Below are positions 17,131 through 62,566 of a stretch of DNA of 64,000 nt, one piece after another. The stretch spans positions 62,001 to 126,000 of the forward strand of contig JQKK01000004.1 in NCBI GenBank assembly GCA_000746015.1, read 5' to 3'. Origin of the DNA: Lachnospiraceae bacterium MA2020. GTDB taxonomy: Bacteria; Bacillota; Clostridia; Lachnospirales; Lachnospiraceae. A model generated the notes under the pieces. The model was given only the letters and a program-made list of their open reading frames with translations. It did no database searches and had not been told where the DNA came from. The position numbers and the translations under genes are program-made. The number at the start of each line of letters is the position of its first letter. The stretch's first letter is position 1.

Positions 17131-17220
17131 TAAAAAATGCCCTACAACGGGCAGCCACAAGGGCGATTTCGATAAATCTTTATTTGAACGTGTGTAAAAA
17201 AGAATAGTAGTCAACTATTC
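17131..17220 (-). ncRNA. tracrRNA of the type II-A CRISPR system
   Basis: Reading the minus strand from about 17220, the RNA begins GAATAGTTGACTACTATTC and continues with an anti-repeat (17215-17183) that pairs with almost the whole CRISPR repeat. In the processed part, repeat GUUUGA pairs with anti-repeat UUCAAAU, then a bulge (GAA on the crRNA, G on the tracrRNA), then GUGUGUAAAAAAG with CUUUUUUACACAC. A small nexus-like hairpin GATTT-ATCG-AAATC follows (about 17178-17165), then a GC-rich hairpin GCCC..GGGC with TTTTTTA (17131-17139) as terminator. In this family tracrRNA is needed for crRNA maturation and Cas9 loading. The strand and ends are inferred from pairing, promoter and terminator. 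Confidence 0.9.
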
Positions 17221-17226
17221 AAATAC

Positions 17227-17255
17227 ATCATAGTTTATAAGAAGGGATATGTCAA
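17227..17255 (-). promoter_or_regulatory. tracrRNA promoter overlapping the cas9 start
   Basis: On the minus strand TTGACA (17255-17250) and TATGAT (17232-17227) stand exactly 17 bases apart, a near-consensus sigma-A promoter that would start the tracrRNA at about 17220. It covers the cas9 ribosome binding site (17241-17246) and both candidate start codons. Confidence 0.85.
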
Positions 17256-20200
17256 TGGGGGATAAGAAAAATCATAGTAGAAAAGAATTTGAAGATTATT
17301 ATTTAGGCTTGGATATTGGTACGGATTCTGTTGGTTGGTGTGTAACGGATAAAGATTATAATGTGTTGAAGTTTAATGGTAAAGCTATGTGGGGAGTAAG
17401 GCTGTTTGCTAAGGCCGCTACTGCTGCGAAGCGTAGGAGCTTTAGAACAGCTAGAAGAAGATTGCAGAGGAGAAGGAATAGGGTTTTACTGGTTGAAGAA
17501 TTGTTGTCCGAGGAAGTGGCTAAGGTTGACCCGTTATTTTTTACGAGATTAAAAGAGAGTAAATTCTATCTTGAAGATAAGGACGAGAAAGTTAGGCAGC
17601 CTTATTGTCTTTTTGCAGATCAAAATTATACTGATGTACAGTACCACAAAGACTATCGCACAATTTATCATCTGAGAAACGCTCTTATGGAGCATGACAG
17701 GAATTATGATATCAGATTGTATTATCTTGCTATAAGTAACTTTATGAAACATAGGGGGCATTTCTTTTTTAATGGGGATATATCTGAAGTAACATTATTT
17801 GAAGCTGTATTTGACAGCTTAAAAGAATATCTGGTGAATGAATTTGAAGTATCATTAGAAACTGATGATATCGAAGAAGTTAAAAATGTTTTATTGGATA
17901 AAAAGATAGGACGTGCGGATAAAAAACGCAAGCTGATTGATCTATTTGATGCTAAAAAATCACAAATTAAGTCGGAAATTTTAGGTGCAATTTGCGGTTT
18001 AAACGTTAGCCTTGATAAGCTTTTTGATGATGAGAGCTTAAAGGATGCAGGAATAGATAAGATTTCTTTTTATGATGGAATTGATGATGAAAAGAATGAT
18101 GAGCTACTTGAAGTGCTTTCAGACAGATTTGAAATGATGATCAGACTAAAGGCAGTATATGATTGGAGTGTGCTTGCTAATATTCTGGCTGATAGCACGT
18201 CAATATCTAAGGCACAGATTAAAGTTTATGAGAAGCATAAAAAAGATCTTCAAGATTTGAAATATGTGGTGAAGAAATATGTTCCTAACGAGTACGATGA
18301 AATATTTAAGGATTCAGGAGTGAAGGAAAACTATACTTCATACGTGGCGCATGTTTTTGAAAAGGGGAATACTTTAACAGAAAAGCGAATCACTGAACAA
18401 AGCGATTTTTGTAAGTATATTAAGAAAAAGCTTGAGAAGGTTGATGCAGAGGATGAAGTACTTGCTAGGATAAAGACAGAAGTGAAAAATTACATCTTTA
18501 TGCCTAAGCAGATATCCAAAAATAATAGTGTGATACCTTATCAGGTACATTTGCAAGAACTAAAGAAGATTGTAGATAACATGGGCATTGATTATCCATT
18601 ATTAAAGGAAAAAGATACTGATGGTTTATCAGTATGCGATAAAATACTAAAAATATTTGAGTTTAGGATACCTTATTATGTAGGACCATTGAATGATTAT
18701 CACAGCGAAAATGGTGGAAATAGCTGGGTAATCAGGAAGGAGTCAGGAAGAGTACTTCCTTGGAATTTTGATTCAAAGGTTGATATAAAGGCCAGTGCTA
18801 GGGCTTTTATGAGTAATCTTACAAATAAATGTACTTATCTGCTTGATGAAGATGTATTGCCAAAGGATTCATTATTGTATTCAAAGTATATGCTTTTGAA
18901 TGAACTCAATAATATCAGAATTAATGGAGACCGACTAGATGTTGATGTGAAACAACGAATATACAATGAGATTTTCAAGACCAGAAGTGGAAAGTTTAGT
19001 CTGAAAAAGCTTACCGATTGGCTGGTTAAAGAAAATATAGCATCAAGAGAGGATAAGGTATCAGGAATAGATAAAGTTTTTCAGACTACATTGAAATCAT
19101 ATCAGGATTTTTACAGAATACTTGGAAGCAGAGTCGAAACGGAACCACAATTTATTGATAAACTAATCGAAAATATCCTCATATTTGGAAATGATAAGAG
19201 GATGCTTAAAGAATTGTTAACTGATGAGTATTCAGATAGGCTTTCTACAGAGGAAATAGAGAGTATTTCAAAGCTTAAGTATTCTGGATGGGGACGTTTT
19301 TCTTCAAAACTCTTAAATGGTATTGAAGATATAGATAAAGAGACCGGAGAAATTAAGACCATTATAAATTTCATGTGGAATGGAAACGAAAACTTCATGG
19401 AATTGATGAGCTCAAAACATGGATTTGCTGAGAAAATACGGCAACAAAATGATGAATTTAAAGGGAACTCAGCGGAAATTAGTTATGACCTTGTATATGA
19501 TTCTTATGCTTCGCCTGCGGTAAAGAGGGGAATATGGCAGACTCTTTTGATAGTTAAGGAAATCATGAAAGTGAAGGGAAAATCTCCTAAGAGGATATTT
19601 GTAGAGGTTGCCAGAGAAAAGGAAAAGAATCCGAAACGTAAAGAGACAAGAAAGGAAAGGCTTTTAGCACCATATAAGTCGATTGAGTGTGAGCGACGTA
19701 ATTGGTATGATGAAATTAATAAACGTAAAGATTGGGAATTTGATGATACAAAGCTATATTTATATTACACACAGTTAGGAAGGGATATGTATTCTGATGA
19801 GGAAATTCCCTTGGAAGAACTGTTTACTGGAAAATATAGTAAAGAACATATTTATCCTCAATCAAAAACAAAAGATGATAGCATAATCAACAATCTTGTC
19901 TTAGTGAGAACAGATTATAATAACGAAAGACAAGATAAAATGCCAATACCTGAAAAATTCAGACAACCTCAGCTGTGGACAAGATTAAAAAAATTAAATT
20001 TGATTTCTGAAGAAAAGTATAAGAGACTTATGCGTAAAGAAGATTTTTCAGATGAAGAGCTTACTGGTTTTATAGCTCGTCAGCTAGTTGAAACAAGGCA
20101 ATCGACAAAAATAGTTGCACAAATCCTAGAACAAACTTTACCGGAAACGAAGGTTGTATATTCTAAAGCAATCAATGTATCGGATTTTAGATATATGGAT

Positions 20201-21298
20201 AAAAAGTATAAATTGGTAAAAACCAGATCAATTAATGACTTTCATCATGCGAAGGACGCATATTTGAGCATAGTTGTTGGAAATGTCTATTATACTAAGT
20301 TCACTGATAATCCGAAAAACTTTATTGCCGGCAAAAAAGAATATAACCTCAAAAAATTATTTGACCATGATGTTACACGTAATGGTGAAATTGCATGGAA
20401 ACAAGGGGAAGAAGGCACTATTGCAACAGTTAGAAAGTATATGGCCAAGAATAACATATTGTTTACGAGGTATGCAACAGAAAATAGGGGCAAACTATTT
20501 GAACAGCCATCAAAGAAAAACTCTAAGAATTTGACGCCGTTAAAATTATCGGATTCAAGAATGAATGTTAAAAAATATGGTGGATACAGTGGCTTAGGTT
20601 ATCAGTATTTTTCTGTTGTTGAACACGAGAAGAATATGAAGAATAAGAAGGCTGTTAGGGCTTTAGTAGCAGTACCTGAATACTTGGGAGATTCTCACGA
20701 AGCTTTTATAGAATATTGTGAGCGTGTACTTAAGTTCAACAGTCCTAGAGTTGTTTATGAAAAGATTAAGATTGATTCATTTTTGAAGATAGATGGATAC
20801 CCTGTTCATCTTGCATGTAATAAGGATTTGACTAGATTTGTGGCTAAAAATGCAGTTCAATTATGCCTAAACAGAGAAAGCGAGGCAGTTATACATAATA
20901 TTGAAAAAGTTATTAAAAAGAAGGATGAAAACAAGGATTACAAGATAACCAGCTATGATAAAATTAGCGAGGAAGAAGTTATTTCTATTTATGATATATT
21001 GCTGGACAAATTGAAGAATGGCATTTTTTCAAATATGAAGGGAGTGTCAGCTGATAAGATTGAGGTGGCAAGGGAGAAATTCATGCTATTATCTATTGAT
21101 GATAAATGTGAGGTTATAAGGCAATTATTGTTTGTATTTAAATGCGATAGAAAAAATGCCAATTTGGCAGTGATAGGAATAGGTGGGGATATAGGAGAAA
21201 TACGGTATAATAAAAACTTATCGGATTATAAATCTTTTAAATTGGTTTCACAATCTGTAACAGGCCTTTTTGAAAATGAAATTGATTTGTTGAAGTAA
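17255..21298 (+). CDS. cas9: CRISPR-associated endonuclease Cas9 (type II-A)
   Basis: An RNA-guided DNA nuclease of 1347 residues. Order: RuvC-I (D20 in GLDIGTDSVGW), Arg-rich bridge helix (about residues 57-75), recognition lobe, RuvC-II (E784 in RIFVEVAREK), HNH (SKEHIYPQSKTKDDS, catalytic H865), RuvC-III (DFHHAKDAYL, H998, D1001), and the PAM-interacting end (KKYGGYSGLGYQYFSV; ending SVTGLFENEIDLL). The HNH metal-ligand Asp before the His is E864 here. At the PAM-reading pair of the Streptococcus pyogenes enzyme, only the second Arg is kept (R1317); the first aligns with E1315. ATG 17255 is preferred because GAAGGG is eight bases away; ATG 17249 lies only two bases from it. cas1 follows one base after the stop. 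Confidence 0.97.
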   Translation: MGDKKNHSRKEFEDYYLGLDIGTDSVGWCVTDKDYNVLKFNGKAMWGVRLFAKAATAAKRRSFRTARRRLQRRRNRVLLVEELLSEEVAKVDPLFFTRLKESKFYLEDKDEKVRQPYCLFADQNYTDVQYHKDYRTIYHLRNALMEHDRNYDIRLYYLAISNFMKHRGHFFFNGDISEVTLFEAVFDSLKEYLVNEFEVSLETDDIEEVKNVLLDKKIGRADKKRKLIDLFDAKKSQIKSEILGAICGLNVSLDKLFDDESLKDAGIDKISFYDGIDDEKNDELLEVLSDRFEMMIRLKAVYDWSVLANILADSTSISKAQIKVYEKHKKDLQDLKYVVKKYVPNEYDEIFKDSGVKENYTSYVAHVFEKGNTLTEKRITEQSDFCKYIKKKLEKVDAEDEVLARIKTEVKNYIFMPKQISKNNSVIPYQVHLQELKKIVDNMGIDYPLLKEKDTDGLSVCDKILKIFEFRIPYYVGPLNDYHSENGGNSWVIRKESGRVLPWNFDSKVDIKASARAFMSNLTNKCTYLLDEDVLPKDSLLYSKYMLLNELNNIRINGDRLDVDVKQRIYNEIFKTRSGKFSLKKLTDWLVKENIASREDKVSGIDKVFQTTLKSYQDFYRILGSRVETEPQFIDKLIENILIFGNDKRMLKELLTDEYSDRLSTEEIESISKLKYSGWGRFSSKLLNGIEDIDKETGEIKTIINFMWNGNENFMELMSSKHGFAEKIRQQNDEFKGNSAEISYDLVYDSYASPAVKRGIWQTLLIVKEIMKVKGKSPKRIFVEVAREKEKNPKRKETRKERLLAPYKSIECERRNWYDEINKRKDWEFDDTKLYLYYTQLGRDMYSDEEIPLEELFTGKYSKEHIYPQSKTKDDSIINNLVLVRTDYNNERQDKMPIPEKFRQPQLWTRLKKLNLISEEKYKRLMRKEDFSDEELTGFIARQLVETRQSTKIVAQILEQTLPETKVVYSKAINVSDFRYMDKKYKLVKTRSINDFHHAKDAYLSIVVGNVYYTKFTDNPKNFIAGKKEYNLKKLFDHDVTRNGEIAWKQGEEGTIATVRKYMAKNNILFTRYATENRGKLFEQPSKKNSKNLTPLKLSDSRMNVKKYGGYSGLGYQYFSVVEHEKNMKNKKAVRALVAVPEYLGDSHEAFIEYCERVLKFNSPRVVYEKIKIDSFLKIDGYPVHLACNKDLTRFVAKNAVQLCLNRESEAVIHNIEKVIKKKDENKDYKITSYDKISEEEVISIYDILLDKLKNGIFSNMKGVSADKIEVAREKFMLLSIDDKCEVIRQLLFVFKCDRKNANLAVIGIGGDIGEIRYNKNLSDYKSFKLVSQSVTGLFENEIDLLK

Positions 21299-21299
21299 A

Positions 21300-22172
21300 A
21301 TGAGTTGGAGAATAGTTGTTATATCTAATAGGGCAAAGCTTGATTATAAGCTTGGCTATATGGTGGTTCGTGGGGAAGAGACTGTAAAAGTGCACATTAC
21401 AGAGATATCTACGTTGATAATAGAGTCAACGGAGGTATCTCTGACTGCTGCGCTTTTGTCTGAACTTACCAAGAAAAAGGTAAAAGTTATATTTTGTGAT
21501 GAGAAAAGAAATCCGTCATCAGAGCTTATAAGCTATTACGGATGCCATGATTCAAGCTCAAAGATAAGGCAGCAGATACAATGGGATGAAGATATAAAGT
21601 GTAGTGTGTGGACTGAGATAGTAACAGAAAAAATCCGTAATCAGAAGAAAGTTCTAGAGGATTATGGAAAAGGTGAGTCTTCTCTTCTTGATGAATATTT
21701 AAGAGAAATTGAATTTAATGATGCAACAAATCGAGAAGGTCATTCTGCTAAAGTATATTTCAATGCCTTATTTGGAAAAGATTTTTCTCGCTCTCTGGAC
21801 GTTCCGATAAATGCTGCATTGAATTATGGATATTCGTTATTATTATCTGCAGTTAATAGAGAAATTGTTAAGTCCGGGTATATTACGCAATTGGGTTTGT
21901 TTCATGATAATATGTTTAATCCATTTAACCTTGGTTCAGATCTTATGGAACCTTTTAGAACATTAGTGGATAGAAAAGTTCTGGAAATATCGCCAGATAG
22001 ATTTGAACATGATGAAAAAATGCAGATGGTCAATATATTGAATTCTCAAGTTTTTATTGATGGAAGGGAACAATATGTAAATAATGCAATAGGAATATAT
22101 TGTAGGAGTGTCTTTGATGCCATAAATGATAAAGACGTGTCTTTGATAAGGTTTTATAGAAATGAGTTATAG
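21300..22172 (+). CDS. cas1: CRISPR-associated endonuclease Cas1
   Basis: The integrase that inserts new spacers together with Cas2. The 290-residue chain has the all-beta N-terminal domain ([20 protein letters not shown]) and a helical catalytic domain with the three metal ligands E146 ([10 protein letters not shown]), H202 ([13 protein letters not shown]) and E217 (SDLMEPFR). Length and sequence fit type II Cas1. It begins one base after the cas9 stop and overlaps cas2 by eleven bases, so the four cas genes form one operon. Confidence 0.95.
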
Positions 22173-22482
22173 GTATATGCGAGTATTGGTATTTTTTGAT
22201 CTTCCGGTTCTGACACAGGAAAATAGGAGGAACTATGCGTGTTTTAGAAAGTTTCTGATAAAGAATGGCTTTATTATGATGCAAGAGTCGGTGTACAGTA
22301 AACTTGCATTAAATCCGTCCATAGCAAATAGCATAGTCGATAGTGTCAAGAAGAATAAACCTCCTGAGGGACTAGTGCAAATGATGACTATAACCGAGAA
22401 ACAGTATCAAAAGATGGAATTTGTTGTAGGAGAGGCAAAAAGTAGCGTTCTTGAGAGTGATGAGAGGCTAGTGATTTTATGA
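22162..22482 (+). CDS. cas2: CRISPR-associated protein Cas2
   Basis: A 106-residue ferredoxin-fold protein. [20 protein letters not shown] carries the conserved Asp at the end of the first strand (D13 from ATG 22162; ATG 22177 is a possible shorter start). It forms the dimeric core of the Cas1-Cas2 integrase. It overlaps cas1 at its start and csn2 at its end (ATGA). Confidence 0.93.
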
Positions 22483-23147
22483 AACTTGTTAATTCTGATT
22501 GGAAGACATGTATAGATTTTGATGAAGAAAAAGTTCAGGTAATATGTATTGAAAATCCGAAATATTATGCAGAAGTAGTTAATGAGCTTTTGCATGAATT
22601 GTCTGGTAACGATGGTAAATTCATATTGTCTGAAAAAGATAAAATATATGATCTGTCGAAGAAGGCGGATATCATACTATCGCCATTTCTGCTTGATTTT
22701 GAAAATAAGAAATTTCAAAATGCTATGACGAAGAAGTTAGTGCAGATTGCAAATGAAGAAGAATATGCAGAAACGAAAGAGTTATCGGGGCAGATACTTG
22801 AATACATATACAAACTGTCGGATTATCTTGATTATGATGTTTCAATCTCTGATGAAGTGGATATTTCGCAATTGCTGAAAACAGTGGGAATGAAGGTGTC
22901 AAAATCAGAAGGAGAGCTTGTAGAACAGATTGTTGATTACATGTTTTTAATGAAAAATGTTCTTGGAATAGAACTTATAATTGGAGTTAATTTTAGGTCA
23001 TTTATATCTGTACATGATCTGGAAAAATTGTATCAAACTTTATTACTGAAGAAGATTAAATTATTATTGTTGGAAAATAAAGTAGTTGATGATAAACTTG
23101 AATGTGAGAAGTGGTTGATTATAGATTCAGATTTATGCGAAATATAG
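22479..23147 (+). CDS. csn2: Type II-A adaptation protein Csn2
   Basis: A 222-residue protein that begins at ATG 22479, overlapping the cas2 stop. It begins [19 protein letters not shown] and has the alpha/beta head and long helical arms of Csn2, a calcium-stabilised ring that holds DNA ends during spacer acquisition in type II-A systems. Its position between cas2 and the array, together with its sequence, places the locus in subtype II-A. The 3' end runs into the CRISPR leader. Confidence 0.88.
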
Positions 23148-23201
23148 CAGTTTTCCTAGTCAGCTAACGGCTATATGAACTCATCCTCATGTTAATTTGA
23201 G
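23148..23201 (+). promoter_or_regulatory. CRISPR leader with ATTTGAG anchoring motif
   Basis: The 54 bases between csn2 and the first repeat end in ATTTGAG (23195-23201), touching repeat 1. This heptamer is the leader-anchoring sequence described for a group of streptococcal type II-A arrays, where it directs integration to the first repeat. The array promoter must lie here or in the end of csn2; I found only weak matches for it. Confidence 0.75.
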
Positions 23202-23888
23202 GTTTGAGAAGTGTGTAAAAAAGAATAGTAGTCAAACGACAAACCACATTTTAGCCCATACGCACAGTTTGAGAAGTGTGTAAAAAAGAATAGTAGTCAA
23301 ACACATGTAGTCCCGAGTATATGTCTCAACTTGTTTGAGAAGTGTGTAAAAAAGAATAGTAGTCAAACGAGCCTGCCAATGTAAGAGCAGCTATTAAAGT
23401 TTGAGAAGTGTGTAAAAAAGAATAGTAGTCAAACACAAAGTGCATATAGGCACGAATGTCGAAGTTTGAGAAGTGTGTAAAAAAGAATAGTAGTCAAACC
23501 ATCAGAACGATTAAAGGTTTCAAGGAAAAGTTTGAGAAGTGTGTAAAAAAGAATAGTAGTCAAACTAATTTTTCCGGCTTGCTCTTTCAGAAGGGTGTTT
23601 GAGAAGTGTGTAAAAAAGAATAGTAGTCAAACACAAGCTCTGCGCTTGTCCAATCCGTTAGAGTTTGAGAAGTGTGTAAAAAAGAATAGTAGTCAAACGT
23701 ACAGCAATGACTTACTTTCTCGTAGTACGTTTGAGAAGTGTGTAAAAAAGAATAGTAGTCAAACTATCACCCTAATTATAGCACCTTTTTTTCGTTTGAG
23801 AAGTGTGTAAAAAAGAATAGTAGTCAAAACGTTAATTCTACGTTTGTGCCCGGCGTTATGTTTGAGAAGTGTGTAAAAAGAATAGTAA
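23202..23888 (+). CRISPR. Type II-A CRISPR array, 10 intact repeats plus a degenerate terminal one
   Basis: Ten 36-bp repeats begin at 23202, 23267, 23333, 23399, 23464, 23530, 23597, 23663, 23729 and 23794; they start GTTTGAGAAGTGTGTAAAA and end GAATAGTAGTCAAAC. The tenth ends in A rather than C. An eleventh at 23860 has lost one A and its last bases. Ten spacers of 29-31 bp lie between, all different. The degenerate end lies far from the leader, so transcription and growth run on the plus strand from the csn2 side. The repeats match the tracrRNA anti-repeat at 17183-17215. Confidence 0.98.
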
Positions 23889-23930
23889 TACTAGGTTTTA
23901 CAGGACTGAGTAACATAAGAATTCTAGAAA

Positions 23931-24139
23931 TCAGGTGCAAGATGGGATACACACCCAAAGAGCAACATCATTTGGAAACCGCCCAACGAAATCAGCTTTT
24001 TACGTAGACTTGCACCACAGGCGAAGAACTCTTAATCTTGAGTGAATCGTCTGTGGTGCTATGTCGGAGTTAAAAGGAAGTTCGTTGGAAAGTCGGTTTC
24101 CCGTGTTGCGTTGGATGTGTATCCCCAATTGCGCCGTCA
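23931..24139. repeat. Structured repeat element, full copy A
   Basis: A 209-bp element that folds end to end: GGTGCAA (23934) with TTGCGCC (24135), GGGATACACA with TGTGTATCCC, GCAACA with TGTTGC, GGAAACCG with CGGTTTCC, CCAACGAA with TTCGTTGG, and a central hairpin GCACCACAG (24012-24020) with CTGTGGTGC (24051-24059) topped by ACTC/GAGT. Copy B at 61128-61334 has the same fold with paired changes. It lies between the CRISPR array and the end of the binding-protein gene on the other strand. Which strand is transcribed, if any, is unknown. Confidence 0.85.
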
Positions 24140-24175
24140 TGTCATTGTATATCAATAAAAAGTATAGCAATCATC

Positions 24176-45466: not shown

Positions 45467-46969
45467 ATGGCTAACAATCGGCGCAGAAAATCGAATAGGA
45501 GACCGGCTTCAAGGAGGAGACCTGAAAGGAATCCTGAAGCGAGAGAAAGAAGACGCCGATATGCCGAGCGTCGTAAGAAAGTTACAAGGATGCCAAGGAG
45601 GGGGATACTAAATCTTCATCTTGGTTCAGTAATATTTTTATTTATAGCGGTATACCTTGTATTTATAGTGATATCGTATGCAAGCACAACTCAGATTGCC
45701 GGATACGAGGTAAAAAATGGCTCGCTTGCACTTGATACAAAGGCAAGGGCAGTAGCAGTAAGAGATGAAGAGGTATATGGTGCAAAGGCAGCCGGATACA
45801 TCAATTACTATGCAAGAGAAGGCGAAAGGGTTGCAGGAAACGAGCTGGTATACGCGATTGATGAGAGCGGGGATCTTTCTGACAGGATCATAGAAAGTCA
45901 GTCGGTCAGCTCGAATATTAAAGAAAGTGACCTTTCCGGTGTAAAGGCAACAATACAGGGCTTTAAGAATAATTTTAAAGACAGCAATTTTGGTACAGTT
46001 TACGATCTTAAGTATGATGTAAAGGGTGACATAGAGCAGGTTACTCATGAGAGCATACTCAATGTGCTGCAGAGCATGTCGGGCAATAAAGCAGGATCTG
46101 CGATCGCAATGGGATATGCTTCAACAAGTGGTATTTTGGTGTATTCAACAGACGGGCTTGAAGGCATAAGACCATCAGATATCACGGCTGATACATTTGA
46201 TGAAGAAAAGCATGCAAAGAAAAAGCTTGTAAATGGTGATCTTGTCTCGGTAAGCGACAATGCTTTTAAGCTTTCCACAAATGAGAATTGGAGTATTGTG
46301 GTAAAGTGGAACGAGGATTGGGCAGATCAGATAGAAGACGGAGAGTATATTCAGGTATGCTTTTTGAAAACCGGAGATGTAATATGGGGTAAAGCAGCAT
46401 TTTTGGAAAATGCTGACGGAAAATATCTGCAGCTGAGTTTTACAAATTCTATGCTTACCTATGCAACAGACAGATATCTCGATGTAGAACTGATGACAGA
46501 TGCTAAAAGTGGACTTAAGATCCCTAATTCATCAATTATTCAGAAAGAATTTTATCTGATTCCGGAAGGATTTCTTACAAAGGGCGGAGACTCTGATACT
46601 GATGGTTTTATCCGTAAGACATGGATGGAAAATGGCACTGAGACTACAGAGTTTGTGCAGGCTGAGATTTATAATAAAGAAGACGGCAAGTTGTATGTGG
46701 GAACAGAGATATTTAACAGTGGTGACGTGCTTGTGATGCCGGATTCGACAGAGCAGTTTACTGTAGGTGAAAAGGCATCACTTACGGGTGTTTACAACAT
46801 GAACAATGGTTATGCTGATTTCAGAATGATCAACGTCATATATCAGAACAAGGAATATGCGATAGTACGCTCTGGAACCAATTATGGACTCAGAGTTTAT
46901 GATCATATAGTACTTAACGGAGAAGGAGTTTCTGAGAGCGATTTCATGTTTTCAAATAAACGAAATTAA
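45467..46969 (+). CDS. HlyD-like membrane-anchored protein of the sepF locus
   Basis: A 500-residue protein: a very basic N-terminus of about 45 residues, one membrane helix (HLGSVIFLFIAVYLVFIVISY), then a large outside region with a lipoyl/barrel-sandwich-like start (ARAVAVRDEEVYGAKAAGYINYYAREGERV) as in HlyD-type adaptors. In Clostridia such a protein is encoded just before yggS-sepF, as here, which hints at a job in envelope or division, though no transporter is attached. The final codons lie inside a duplicated 34-bp unit. Confidence 0.75.
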   Translation: MANNRRRKSNRRPASRRRPERNPEARERRRRYAERRKKVTRMPRRGILNLHLGSVIFLFIAVYLVFIVISYASTTQIAGYEVKNGSLALDTKARAVAVRDEEVYGAKAAGYINYYAREGERVAGNELVYAIDESGDLSDRIIESQSVSSNIKESDLSGVKATIQGFKNNFKDSNFGTVYDLKYDVKGDIEQVTHESILNVLQSMSGNKAGSAIAMGYASTSGILVYSTDGLEGIRPSDITADTFDEEKHAKKKLVNGDLVSVSDNAFKLSTNENWSIVVKWNEDWADQIEDGEYIQVCFLKTGDVIWGKAAFLENADGKYLQLSFTNSMLTYATDRYLDVELMTDAKSGLKIPNSSIIQKEFYLIPEGFLTKGGDSDTDGFIRKTWMENGTETTEFVQAEIYNKEDGKLYVGTEIFNSGDVLVMPDSTEQFTVGEKASLTGVYNMNNGYADFRMINVIYQNKEYAIVRSGTNYGLRVYDHIVLNGEGVSESDFMFSNKRN

Positions 46970-47021
46970 AAATTGTCGCTTACGATTAAATAAACGAAAT
47001 TAAAAATTGTCGCTTACGATT
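46954..47021 (+). repeat. 34-bp tandem duplication across the gene end
   Basis: Two identical 34-bp units, 46954-46987 and 46988-47021, beginning AAATAAACGAAATTAAAAAT and ending TTGTCGCTTACGATT. The first contains the stop codon of the upstream gene and its last four sense codons; the second repeats them untranslated. Confidence 0.95.
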
Positions 47022-61050: not shown

Positions 61051-61127
61051 AGGAGCAGCAAATGAACAGTAAACTTTAAGTTCTAGTATTTAGCGGGGAT
61101 TATTAATCAACATAAAGCAGATAAAAA

Positions 61128-61334
61128 TCAGGCGTAAGGTGGGAACATATCCAAAGAGCAACATCATTTGGAAACCGCCCAACGAAATCGGATTTTTACG
61201 TAGACTTGTATCACAGACGAAGAGCTCTTAATCTTGAGCGAATCGTCTGTGATGCTATGTCGGAGTTAAAAGAAAGTTCGTTGGAAAGTCGGTTTCCTGT
61301 GTTGCGTTGGATATGTCCCTGACTTACACCGTCA
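61128..61334. repeat. Structured repeat element, full copy B
   Basis: A 207-bp copy of the element at 23931-24139 in the same orientation. GGCGTAAG (61131) pairs with CTTACACC (61323-61330), CATATCC with GGATATG, GCAACA with TGTTGC, GGAAACCG with CGGTTTCC, CCAACGAA with TTCGTTGG, and the central GTATCACAG (61208-61216) with CTGTGATGC (61247-61255), capped by GCTC/GAGC. Relative to copy A, several pairs change on both sides together. It lies between the broken-gene row and the PD-(D/E)XK gene. Confidence 0.85.
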
Positions 61335-61534
61335 TGTTAAAGAAAAAATTAACGCAACCACTTTTAAAACTATGAAAAAGATAGTATGATGTGATTATCT
61401 AATATCAAGTCCATAATCAAAGGATCTTCTATTTTCAAATTTCCGAGTACAAATTTACGCTGCCTGAGCTGATTCAGCTATTTTCTAATTGTAAGTCATG
61501 TGGTAAGATGATACTATTAACTTGAGGAGCAATT

Positions 61535-62371
61535 ATGGCTAAAGAAACATATAAGGATACAAATAATAATACGCAAAGAGATTCTGAAGTAATCAAGATT
61601 GTAGATGATATGACGCTCTTTGACGATGAGCTGATGAGCAAGGTGTTTGATAAGAACATCGAGGCAACAGAGCTTCTTCTGAGGATTATATTGGAGCGTG
61701 ATGATATTAAGGTTATCAAAGTAAAAGGTCAGGTAGAAATGAAAAGTCCTTATCCAAAAGGACGTAACATAAGGCTTGATATTCATGCAGTTGATGGAAA
61801 TGGTGTAGAGTTTGACGTTGAAGTTCAGCGTAATGTAAGAGGCTCGCACATCCGCCGGGCAAGATTCAATGGAAGCATGATGGATGCGAGAATGCTGAAA
61901 GAAAAGCAGGACTTTAAGGAGTTAAAGGATAGCTATATTATTTTTATTTGTCAGCATGATAAGTTTAAAAAGAATAAGCCAGTGTATCATGTAGATAAGA
62001 TTGTAAGAGAAACAGGCGAGATATTTGCTGATGGAGCACATATAATTTATGTGAATGGCAAATATCGAGGAGATGATGCGTTTGGAAAGCTTGCACATGA
62101 TTTTAATTGCAAGAAATCCAAAAATATGTATTATAAGCCGTTTGCTGATGGCGTTAGACACTTTAAGGAAACGGAGAAAGGTAGGGAAGAAATGTGTGAG
62201 TCTGTTGAAAAATATGCAGATAAAAAATCTGAAAAAAGTAGAATGGATACACTTATCAATAATGTAAGCTTAATGATGAAAAATATGAAATGCTCATTGG
62301 AAGACGCTCTTAATGCGTTAGAAATCAGTGGTAAAGAAAGAACGCTTATTACTAAGCAGCTTCAAAAGTGA
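61535..62371 (+). CDS. PD-(D/E)XK nuclease family transposase (Rpn type)
   Basis: A 278-residue protein of the Rpn/PDDEXK-transposase family that is multiplied in Lachnospiraceae. The nuclease core is in IRLDIHAVDGNGVEFDVEVQ (Asp, then Glu-x-Gln), after LFDDELMSKVFDKNIEATEL. The C-terminus is a charged helical tail. TTGAGGAG lies upstream of ATG 61535. It sits between element copies B and C, which have the same orientation. Rpn proteins are linked to recombination-promoting DNA cleavage. Confidence 0.88.
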   Translation: MAKETYKDTNNNTQRDSEVIKIVDDMTLFDDELMSKVFDKNIEATELLLRIILERDDIKVIKVKGQVEMKSPYPKGRNIRLDIHAVDGNGVEFDVEVQRNVRGSHIRRARFNGSMMDARMLKEKQDFKELKDSYIIFICQHDKFKKNKPVYHVDKIVRETGEIFADGAHIIYVNGKYRGDDAFGKLAHDFNCKKSKNMYYKPFADGVRHFKETEKGREEMCESVEKYADKKSEKSRMDTLINNVSLMMKNMKCSLEDALNALEISGKERTLITKQLQK

Positions 62372-62398: not shown

Positions 62399-62428
62399 AA
62401 GCAGTGGACAATAAGTCTACTGCTTTTT
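62399..62428 (+). terminator. Rho-independent terminator
   Basis: GCAGTGGAC pairs with GTCTACTGC (one G-T) around AATAA, followed by TTTTT. Its T tract is also the left edge of element copy C. Confidence 0.88.
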
Positions 62429-62566
62429 ATGTAGACTAGCACCACAGACGAAGAGTTCTTGATCTTGAGCGAATCGTCTGCGGTGCTATGTCGGAGTTAA
62501 AAGAAAGTTCGGTGGAAAGTCGGTTTCCTGTGTTGCGTTGGATATGTGTCCCGGCTTACGCCGTCA
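62425..62566. repeat. Structured repeat element, 5'-truncated copy C
   Basis: From TTTTATGTAGACTAGCACC onward this matches copies A and B to the end (GCCGTCA at 62566), including the central hairpin GCACCACAG/CTGCGGTGC with one A-C mismatch. The left arm of about 70 bases is missing and replaced by the terminator of the PD-(D/E)XK gene, so the outer stems cannot form. Confidence 0.85.

Follow-up and report, generated by a model that had tools for sequence, protein, structure and literature searches.

Rod-shaped palindromes with a selected single-strand fold in Lachnospiraceae: a dispersed repeat family of presumably mobile origin

We analyzed a stretch of 64,000 nucleotides from contig JQKK01000004.1 of Lachnospiraceae bacterium MA2020 (here called the window). 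It carries a type II CRISPR-Cas locus (17181 to 23890; of the subtype II-A type by its Csn2) with Cas9 (17249 to 21298; TIGR01865, 906.6 bits), Csn2 (22479 to 23147; PF09711), and a CRISPR repeat array whose last repeat is degenerate (23202 to 23890). A repeat-like stretch before cas9 (17181 to 17234) may be a tracrRNA anti-repeat. About 40 bp beyond the end of the array starts a complete rod-shaped palindrome on the + strand (copy A; 23932 to 24138), bounded by the feet CAG (23932 to 23934) and CGTC (24135 to 24138). Rods were scored with two covariance models, i.e., R1, a model of the core of the rod, and R2, a broader model of 38 sequences (a first collection of 69 copies, less 2 removed by hand, was reduced to 44 at a similarity cut, and 6 more were then removed by hand). 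Copy A scores 56.3 bits with R2, which models its core, apical hairpin included, at 23974 to 24101. Within this core, the sequence and the 38-sequence alignment place a GNA/GNA 3x3 internal loop (5' side, 24004 to 24006; partner, 24066 to 24068; alignment columns 32 to 34 and 102 to 104) that is among the most conserved loops of the family.

A second complete rod on the + strand (copy B; 61129 to 61333; R2, 49.7 bits) has its CAG foot at 61129 to 61131 and its CGTC foot at 61330 to 61333. Directly behind it lies an ISLre2-like right-end remnant (61334 to 61464, + strand) with the same terminal sequence as an insertion sequence (IS) of another genome, G033; the window from 61123 to 61464 gives a 77% alignment with the IS right end in locus L025. 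Farther right is a PDDEXK_2/Rpn-like gene (61535 to 62371, + strand; Pfam PF12784, 48.2 bits, cut-off 27.4; NCBIfam TIGR01784, 50.4 bits, under the cut-off of 52.1). It has the orientation of the rods that flank it, which we note as context only. Directly after this gene comes copy C (about 62422 to 62565, + strand; R2, 24.8 bits), which retains the right part of the core and the right arm with its CGTC foot (62562 to 62565). A preliminary description of the window had delimited A and B at 23931 to 24139 and 61128 to 61334, limits that we trimmed by one base at each end to run from foot to foot; its copy C does belong to the family, although as a 5'-truncated and not a complete copy. Elsewhere in the window, an exact 34-bp tandem duplication was seen at 46954 to 47021.

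The end-to-end rod fold proposed for A and B was borne out, with z scores of about -10 for both. The minimum free energy (MFE) of copy A (23911 to 24159) is -104.3 kcal/mol, whereas its shuffles average -57.7 (z, -9.95); copy B (61108 to 61354) reaches -95.0 kcal/mol, with a shuffle average of -52.3 (z, -9.52). In neither case was any of 200 shuffles as good. The asymmetric loop with a TCATTT side is conserved in both copies, as had been described. Four base pairs reported to have changed on both sides proved to be read correctly and to be paired in the MFE folds of both copies (C23952-G24117 in A versus T61148-A61313 in B; C23938-G24131 versus T61135-A61326; C24015-G24056 versus T61211-A61252; and A24028-T24043 versus G61224-C61239). 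Among the 71 pairs of A alignable to B, 61 are identical; 5 changed on both sides (4 still paired, 1 broken) and 5 on one side (3 still paired, 2 broken). By permutation, 0.79 coincident double changes would be expected against the 5 observed (P = 1e-4).

The same signal extends to the family. A covariance model and a search of Lachnospiraceae genomes, the check that the preliminary description had suggested, gave double changes at 23 of the 26 core pairs in the 38 sequences. This core alignment contains 181 double-change cells versus 49.5 after shuffling, and 89.6% of its cells are paired versus 73.5%; in an alignment of 94 model-fitted matches, which leans to the model, the count was 442 versus 103. 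Double changes this far above the shuffled level agree with the original proposal of a selected RNA structure or DNA cruciform rather than a random repeat. The proposal that no named RNA family fits also held in an Rfam search: there was no match at gathering score in the window (for copy A, none up to E 5), and 12 other rod loci yielded five matches, every one of them under the gathering score.

As far as sequence comparison goes, the rod is a member of a dispersed family in Lachnospiraceae with units of about 185 to 210 bp. The outer ends of the unit are the unpaired left foot CAG and the unpaired right foot CGTC. Next come arms of about 20 to 36 bp (by eye), which are near-perfectly complementary and often differ between copies, followed inward by the conserved asymmetric loop and by a core in which conserved loops alternate with compensating variable helices. 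The core loops comprise GARATCC opposite TTAG, usually with a T.T mismatch, and the GNA/GNA loop. Six columns (A19, T20, C21, T29, A30, and A34) are invariant in the 38 sequences, distant cores keep the same loops on different helices, and the apical hairpin varies in length and sequence. Both feet were found in 51 copies of the first collection, and these rods measure 183 to 209 bp. A larger set of 146 copies was formed from 84 of the 94 model matches (10, mostly at locus ends, were left out) and from the first collection of 69, which contributed 62 copies once 7 identical ones were removed; the CGTC 3' foot occurs in 91 of the 146, the 91 being defined by both feet with complementary arms.

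The CAG/CGTC feet are specific. In 400 kb of genome G186, nine palindromes have these feet, and eight of the nine have the core. Random foot pairs (n = 60) gave no palindrome in 58 cases and 1 and 5 in the other two (mean, 0.1). Eight of ten chosen foot pairs likewise gave none; the high counts for CAG/CTGC (12) and AAG/CTTC (11) are trivial because those feet complement each other. We also considered whether rods are inserts into pre-existing hairpins and rejected this origin: coreless CAG/CGTC hairpins are rare (one of the nine), and the single example is a deletion relative to genome G477. In three rods (L205, G186:C1:1156210-1156406, and L369), an unrelated hairpin of about 50 nt stands in place of the GNA/GNA loop and the apical stem, and rods such as L205 constitute a second type, with another upper hairpin, in G186 and G477. 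The sequences suggest that the upper domain behaves as if it were exchangeable. In genome G040, a second hairpin family with CAG/CGTC-like feet and a different core lies left of the rods (L080, L082, L084 to L086, and L223) and by eye is their divergent partner. Similarity among the left flanks of rods was dismissed as a signal of its own, since divergent partner rods account for it, as does this second family in G040.

The window's genome itself contains 10 to 12 copies and thus further rods beyond the three described at first (18 R1 matches, 6 of which hit an already counted rod on its other strand, leaving 12 distinct places; 10 R2 matches). R1 matched 25 of 397 Lachnospiraceae genomes (including that of the window) at E 1e-4, and a class-wide draw gave matches in 3 of 391 genomes, all of them Lachnospiraceae and one of them the window's genome; since both surveys scored 8 to 9 candidates per genome, the copy numbers and perhaps the numbers of positive genomes are lower bounds. 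With R2, 13 of 16 chosen genomes gave 7 to 49 matches each, while G314 gave 5, G346 gave 3, and G480 gave none. Within one genus, taken as Oliverpabstia, four genomes have 39, 49, 28, and 23 matches, and G480, a fifth genome of that genus that is 91% complete, is the one with no R2 match. A pattern scan of named genomes found at least 119 stretches. Among the matches listed, all 80 records are from Lachnospiraceae (e.g., Blautia schinkii, Oliverpabstia intestinalis, and Dorea) or from unplaced Clostridia, Eubacteriales, and similar metagenome-assembled genomes (MAGs), and the model matched all 80, the pattern itself being part of the model. All rods found come from Lachnospiraceae or unplaced Clostridia MAGs. 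Carriage by viruses was discarded as an explanation: four pattern matches turned up in viral contigs, of which a single one scored with the model, and weakly so (12.9 bits; E, 0.45); two further patterns gave no match, and neither copy A nor one second rod had a match in phages and plasmids.

The two strands of the rod are not equivalent. The + strand fold is the more stable one in 49 of 51 copies, by a mean of 7.9 kcal/mol, an excess due in part to the shared core. The arms provided a test independent of the core. Over the outermost 26 bases per arm, 90 unique arm pairs contain 1,992 Watson-Crick positions, 27 gaps, and 158 mismatches, 95 of which are isolated. The isolated mismatches on the + strand include 49 G.T and 21 A.C, and among 48 clusters 18 favor G.T and 4 favor A.C (26 ties). 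A first count, based on 51 copies and longer arms, had been even (23 G.T versus 21 A.C); the later one was limited to the outer 26 bases and drew on more genomes. Within the alignment, G.U exceeds A.C in the apical helix (37 versus 8) and in the core helices (11 versus 5), and at one apical pair 30 of 93 sequences have G.U; an early pattern-based count of apical stems (5 G.T, 7 A.C) was too crude for use. The excess of G.T over A.C in the arms indicates selection on one folded strand, which may be RNA or single-stranded DNA; the bias fits both alike and does not tell them apart. Compensatory changes beyond chance and strand-asymmetric wobble pairs thus identify the rod as a selected single-strand structure, in which one strand is kept foldable.

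These counts bear on an explanation that needs no selection, i.e., that template switching during replication copies one arm onto the other and so maintains a passive palindrome. The arms are indeed near-perfect (the 1,992 Watson-Crick positions against 158 mismatches) and mostly unrelated across copies, and the internal deletions found in some rods resemble those of long palindromes. Template-switch correction is strand symmetric, however, and would erase internal loops, whereas several loop columns are invariant in 38 diverse sequences, distant cores hold their loops on different helices, and G.T exceeds A.C in arms counted independently of the core. We consider this explanation unlikely for the rod as a whole, and for the core it is already largely refuted.

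The position of the rods relative to genes was determined for 80 copies (i.e., the 91 with both feet minus 8 at contig edges and 3 inside open reading frames; locus L120, identical to L242, is counted twice, and three orthologous pairs are counted separately; a repeat under slightly altered neighbor rules again left 80). Of 16 rods between convergent genes, 15 have a smaller gap on the right than on the left (medians, 36.5 versus 279 bp). The median right gap is 32.5 bp (left, 268.5 bp) between codirectional genes when the stop of the right gene faces the rod; in the two arrangements in which the right gene starts beside the rod, it is 124.5 and 161 bp (left, 192 and 281.5 bp), so that the rod adjoins the promoter region. 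The rods thus have a set orientation, with the right foot against a gene border. Some rods form divergent pairs, left sides facing, at distances of about 50 to 400 bp; these include, outside convergent settings, two G186 pairs between codirectional genes. With respect to replication, 15 of 39 G186 rods are co-directional and 24 head-on by a hand count (dnaA at base 1069 of contig C1; terminus assumed near 1.8 Mb). We therefore set aside a strong bias toward insertion into the lagging strand.

One reading of this placement is that the rod acts at the RNA level as a boundary element. Read-through RNA coming from the left would fold into the rod and be stopped, trimmed, or protected before the right-hand gene or its promoter, so that antisense RNA into that gene would be avoided; the rod might be mobile in origin and kept for this use. 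The right gap, smaller by median in all four gene arrangements, is consistent with such a role, as are the G.U excess on the + strand (including the apical pair that is G.U in 30 of 93 sequences), the divergent pairs with facing left sides, and an orthologous site (L116/L202) at which the arms are kept beside intergenic DNA that no longer aligns. Against it, a flank profile of 51 copies has no U-tract behind the right foot CGTC, which excludes an ordinary intrinsic terminator; the left gene is directed away from the rod in 38 of the 80 copies, so that no + strand transcript reaches the rod from its left neighbor there; and the element is dispensable, since G480 lacks it despite belonging to the rod-rich genus. 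As regards a possible displacement of terminators by rods, sites resembling terminators lie no more than 140 bp beyond the rod in 4 of 37 cases; at G186 gene ends that lack a rod and were scanned over 180 bp, the counts are 8 of 46 for convergent and 18 of 116 for codirectional genes, a comparison that speaks neither way. We hold the boundary role to be possible but not probable, and it is the main rival to a mobile origin.

The wider space on the left could alternatively hold a promoter, which would make each rod a stand-alone small RNA gene present in many copies. The strand-specific fold and the conserved loops would suit such a gene, and 28% of the left flanks have promoter-like scores above 7, compared with 17% of the shuffled means. 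These sites have no fixed position, however, and the mean score in the 130 bp left of 88 rods (5.89) equals that of shuffled sequence (5.91) and of the opposite strand (5.59); scores are raised in the right flank only. Some divergent rods leave only about 50 bp between them, there is no terminator, and the arms vary among copies. A small RNA gene is accordingly a very unlikely account of the family.

Comparisons between genomes provided information on the history of the sites. Rods of G186 and G477 occupy the same place at most of the compared sites. At one orthologous site (L131/L205), the arms differ by compensated changes; at another (L117/L126), they have diverged, and in L128 the changes of the left arm are not fully compensated. 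At several sites, the arms are kept while the core or apical hairpin is swapped for other versions. That orthologous sites retain their arms suggests that the copies are old and possibly useful and speaks against active spread. No clean empty site was found; the near-empty ones (the L129 site, 1156210, and 946073) are all internal deletions of a rod, and no target-site duplication emerged. At site 1122308, G477 is without a rod, but the neighboring DNA is missing too. Two further kinds of repeats were seen in the flanks. The right arm with the CGTC foot and some flank is repeated beside several rods (right flanks of L117, L090, L092, and L115), as can be seen in the comparison of G186 and G477 at the L117/L126 site. 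The left flank of L114 contains a stretch of about 115 bp that has dozens of copies in G186 and G477, partly on the opposite strand, and is, to judge from these copies, another high-copy repeat of that genus.

In contrast to these sites, copy A and a second copy, A2, have 95% identity across the whole rod and lie at unrelated sites, their flanks being unrelated except for a few bases beside the feet; the rods have thus been dispersed to unrelated sites. In G033, which belongs to the same genus as the window's genome, a 2.37-kb IS of the ISLre2 family (NF033529, 209.1 bits; cut-off, 200) carries a rod in its noncoding tail, and its six copies share their ends and are flanked by 9-bp direct repeats. 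Copy B keeps the right end of the IS behind the rod; A and A2 do not, and their similarity to the G033 IS is limited to the rod plus a few adjacent bases. Occurring both with an IS tail (B and G033) and alone (A and A2), the rod can travel as a passenger or stand by itself. The preliminary description had named a perfect match to a known MITE or IS end, with a transposase in other genomes, as one finding that would count against its proposal. This is half the case: the rod does lie inside an ISLre2-family IS in a genome of the same genus, but it sits in the noncoding tail rather than at the IS end, and A and A2 have no IS sequence.

Several known systems resemble the rod in part. The hallmarks of ISLre2 elements are an ISLre2 transposase, terminal inverted repeats, and a duplication of about 9 bp. 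The carrier IS of G033 shows the transposase match, shared ends, and 9-bp direct repeats; the rod, unlike such an IS, sits in the noncoding tail and not at the ends and occurs alone elsewhere. MITEs and the ERIC, RUP, and Correia repeats are noncoding, intergenic, and palindromic, as is the rod, and measure 100 to 200 bp. MITEs carry the terminal repeats of their parent IS and target duplications; for the rod, we found no such terminal repeats, and the sites available for comparison, near-empty ones that are internal deletions, revealed no target duplication. A MITE of ISLre2, considered with respect to the G033 element only, was rejected because the ends of that IS differ from the rod feet. 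REPIN/RAYT systems, which like the rods are hairpin forming, nonautonomous, and dispersed, need a REP-associated Y1 transposase. Of the 26 rod-positive genomes then known, 22 were searched for Y1_Tnp; 15 gave a match and 7 (e.g., G448, which has 10 rods) did not, and a REP/RAYT origin was rejected on this ground.

REPs bear their tag on the 5' side; the CGTC of the rod is the 3' foot of the folding strand, and the polarity may thus differ from that of REP tags. In those parts of Di Nocera et al. 2013 (PMC3733652) on which we draw, CGTC- and GTAG-tagged REPs are dispersed intergenic palindromes of 20 to 40 bp with an unpaired tag, and the CGTC type has stems of 8 to 9 bp, loops of 4 to 5 nt, and a short, mostly CCA tail. 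The CGTC-tagged REPs are the nearest described group that we found. They share with the rods an unpaired CGTC tag at one end, pairs in opposite orientation, a location near gene 3' ends, G.T pairs in stems, and the absence of a dedicated transposase (PMC3733652). Membership in this superfamily was nevertheless rejected on size and anatomy: the tag agrees, but the rods (183 to 209 bp in 51 copies; 185 to 210 bp per unit) have arms of 20 to 36 bp (by eye), a multiloop core, and a 5' CAG foot. The terms "Clostridi," "Firmicutes," and "Lachnospir" are absent from the main text of PMC3733652. Candidate RNAs that are palindromic and found on both strands have also been described, as far as the consulted sections indicate; 230 of 250 were predicted terminators, and the examples come mainly or wholly from Bacteroidetes (PMC8040213). 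A further palindromic candidate adjoins CRISPR arrays, i.e., those of type I-G loci in Proteobacteria and Actinobacteria, in the part of the survey consulted (PMC9067536). Both kinds share the palindromic character of the rod and differ from it in taxa, the rod being found in Lachnospiraceae. Searches of open-access papers gave no description of the rod; the supplements of candidate-RNA surveys lay outside this search, and the rod may figure there as an unnamed candidate (PMC8040213 and PMC9067536). The family is thus apparently undescribed.

Taking these lines of evidence together, we lean, with modest confidence, toward the view that the rods are a family of dispersed, REP/MITE-like structured palindromes that are mobile in origin and whose folded + strand is the selected form. 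The many copies and the patchy occurrence of the family (25 of 397 genomes; 39, 49, 28, and 23 matches versus none within one genus) count for a mobile origin, as do the identity of A and A2 at unrelated sites and the presence of the rod with or without an IS tail. The points against it are that no clean empty site was found, that no target duplication was seen, and that no transposase is linked. The unit extends from the unpaired CAG to the unpaired CGTC, and its + strand folds as a single rod in which helices drift while some loop positions stay fixed. Having no gene of its own, the unit would, according to the mobile-origin reading, spread in trans, via a factor that reads the folded single strand and not the duplex sequence, with the feet and the core loops as probable recognition features. 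Inserted copies might be tolerated, or they might come to serve as boundary hairpins where genes end, in a lifestyle comparable to that of REP/BIME or MITE elements. A mobile palindrome and an RNA boundary can both be true of the same rods. A more far-reaching proposal, which we regard as doubtful, would unite them in a class of mobile elements that have no gene of their own, are recognized in trans by their fold, combine drifting helices and fixed loops with exchangeable apical domains, and sit in a set orientation at the borders of transcription units, where their RNA would shield the right-hand gene.

The rods would add a large and apparently undescribed repeat family to the gut Lachnospiraceae, together with a ready covariance model for annotating it. 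They would also supply a case, with many covarying natural variants, in which mobility or a boundary function rests on a folded single strand. Should the boundary role be borne out, the rod would serve as a natural insulator that keeps out antisense and read-through transcripts, in a bacterial family for which few tools exist.
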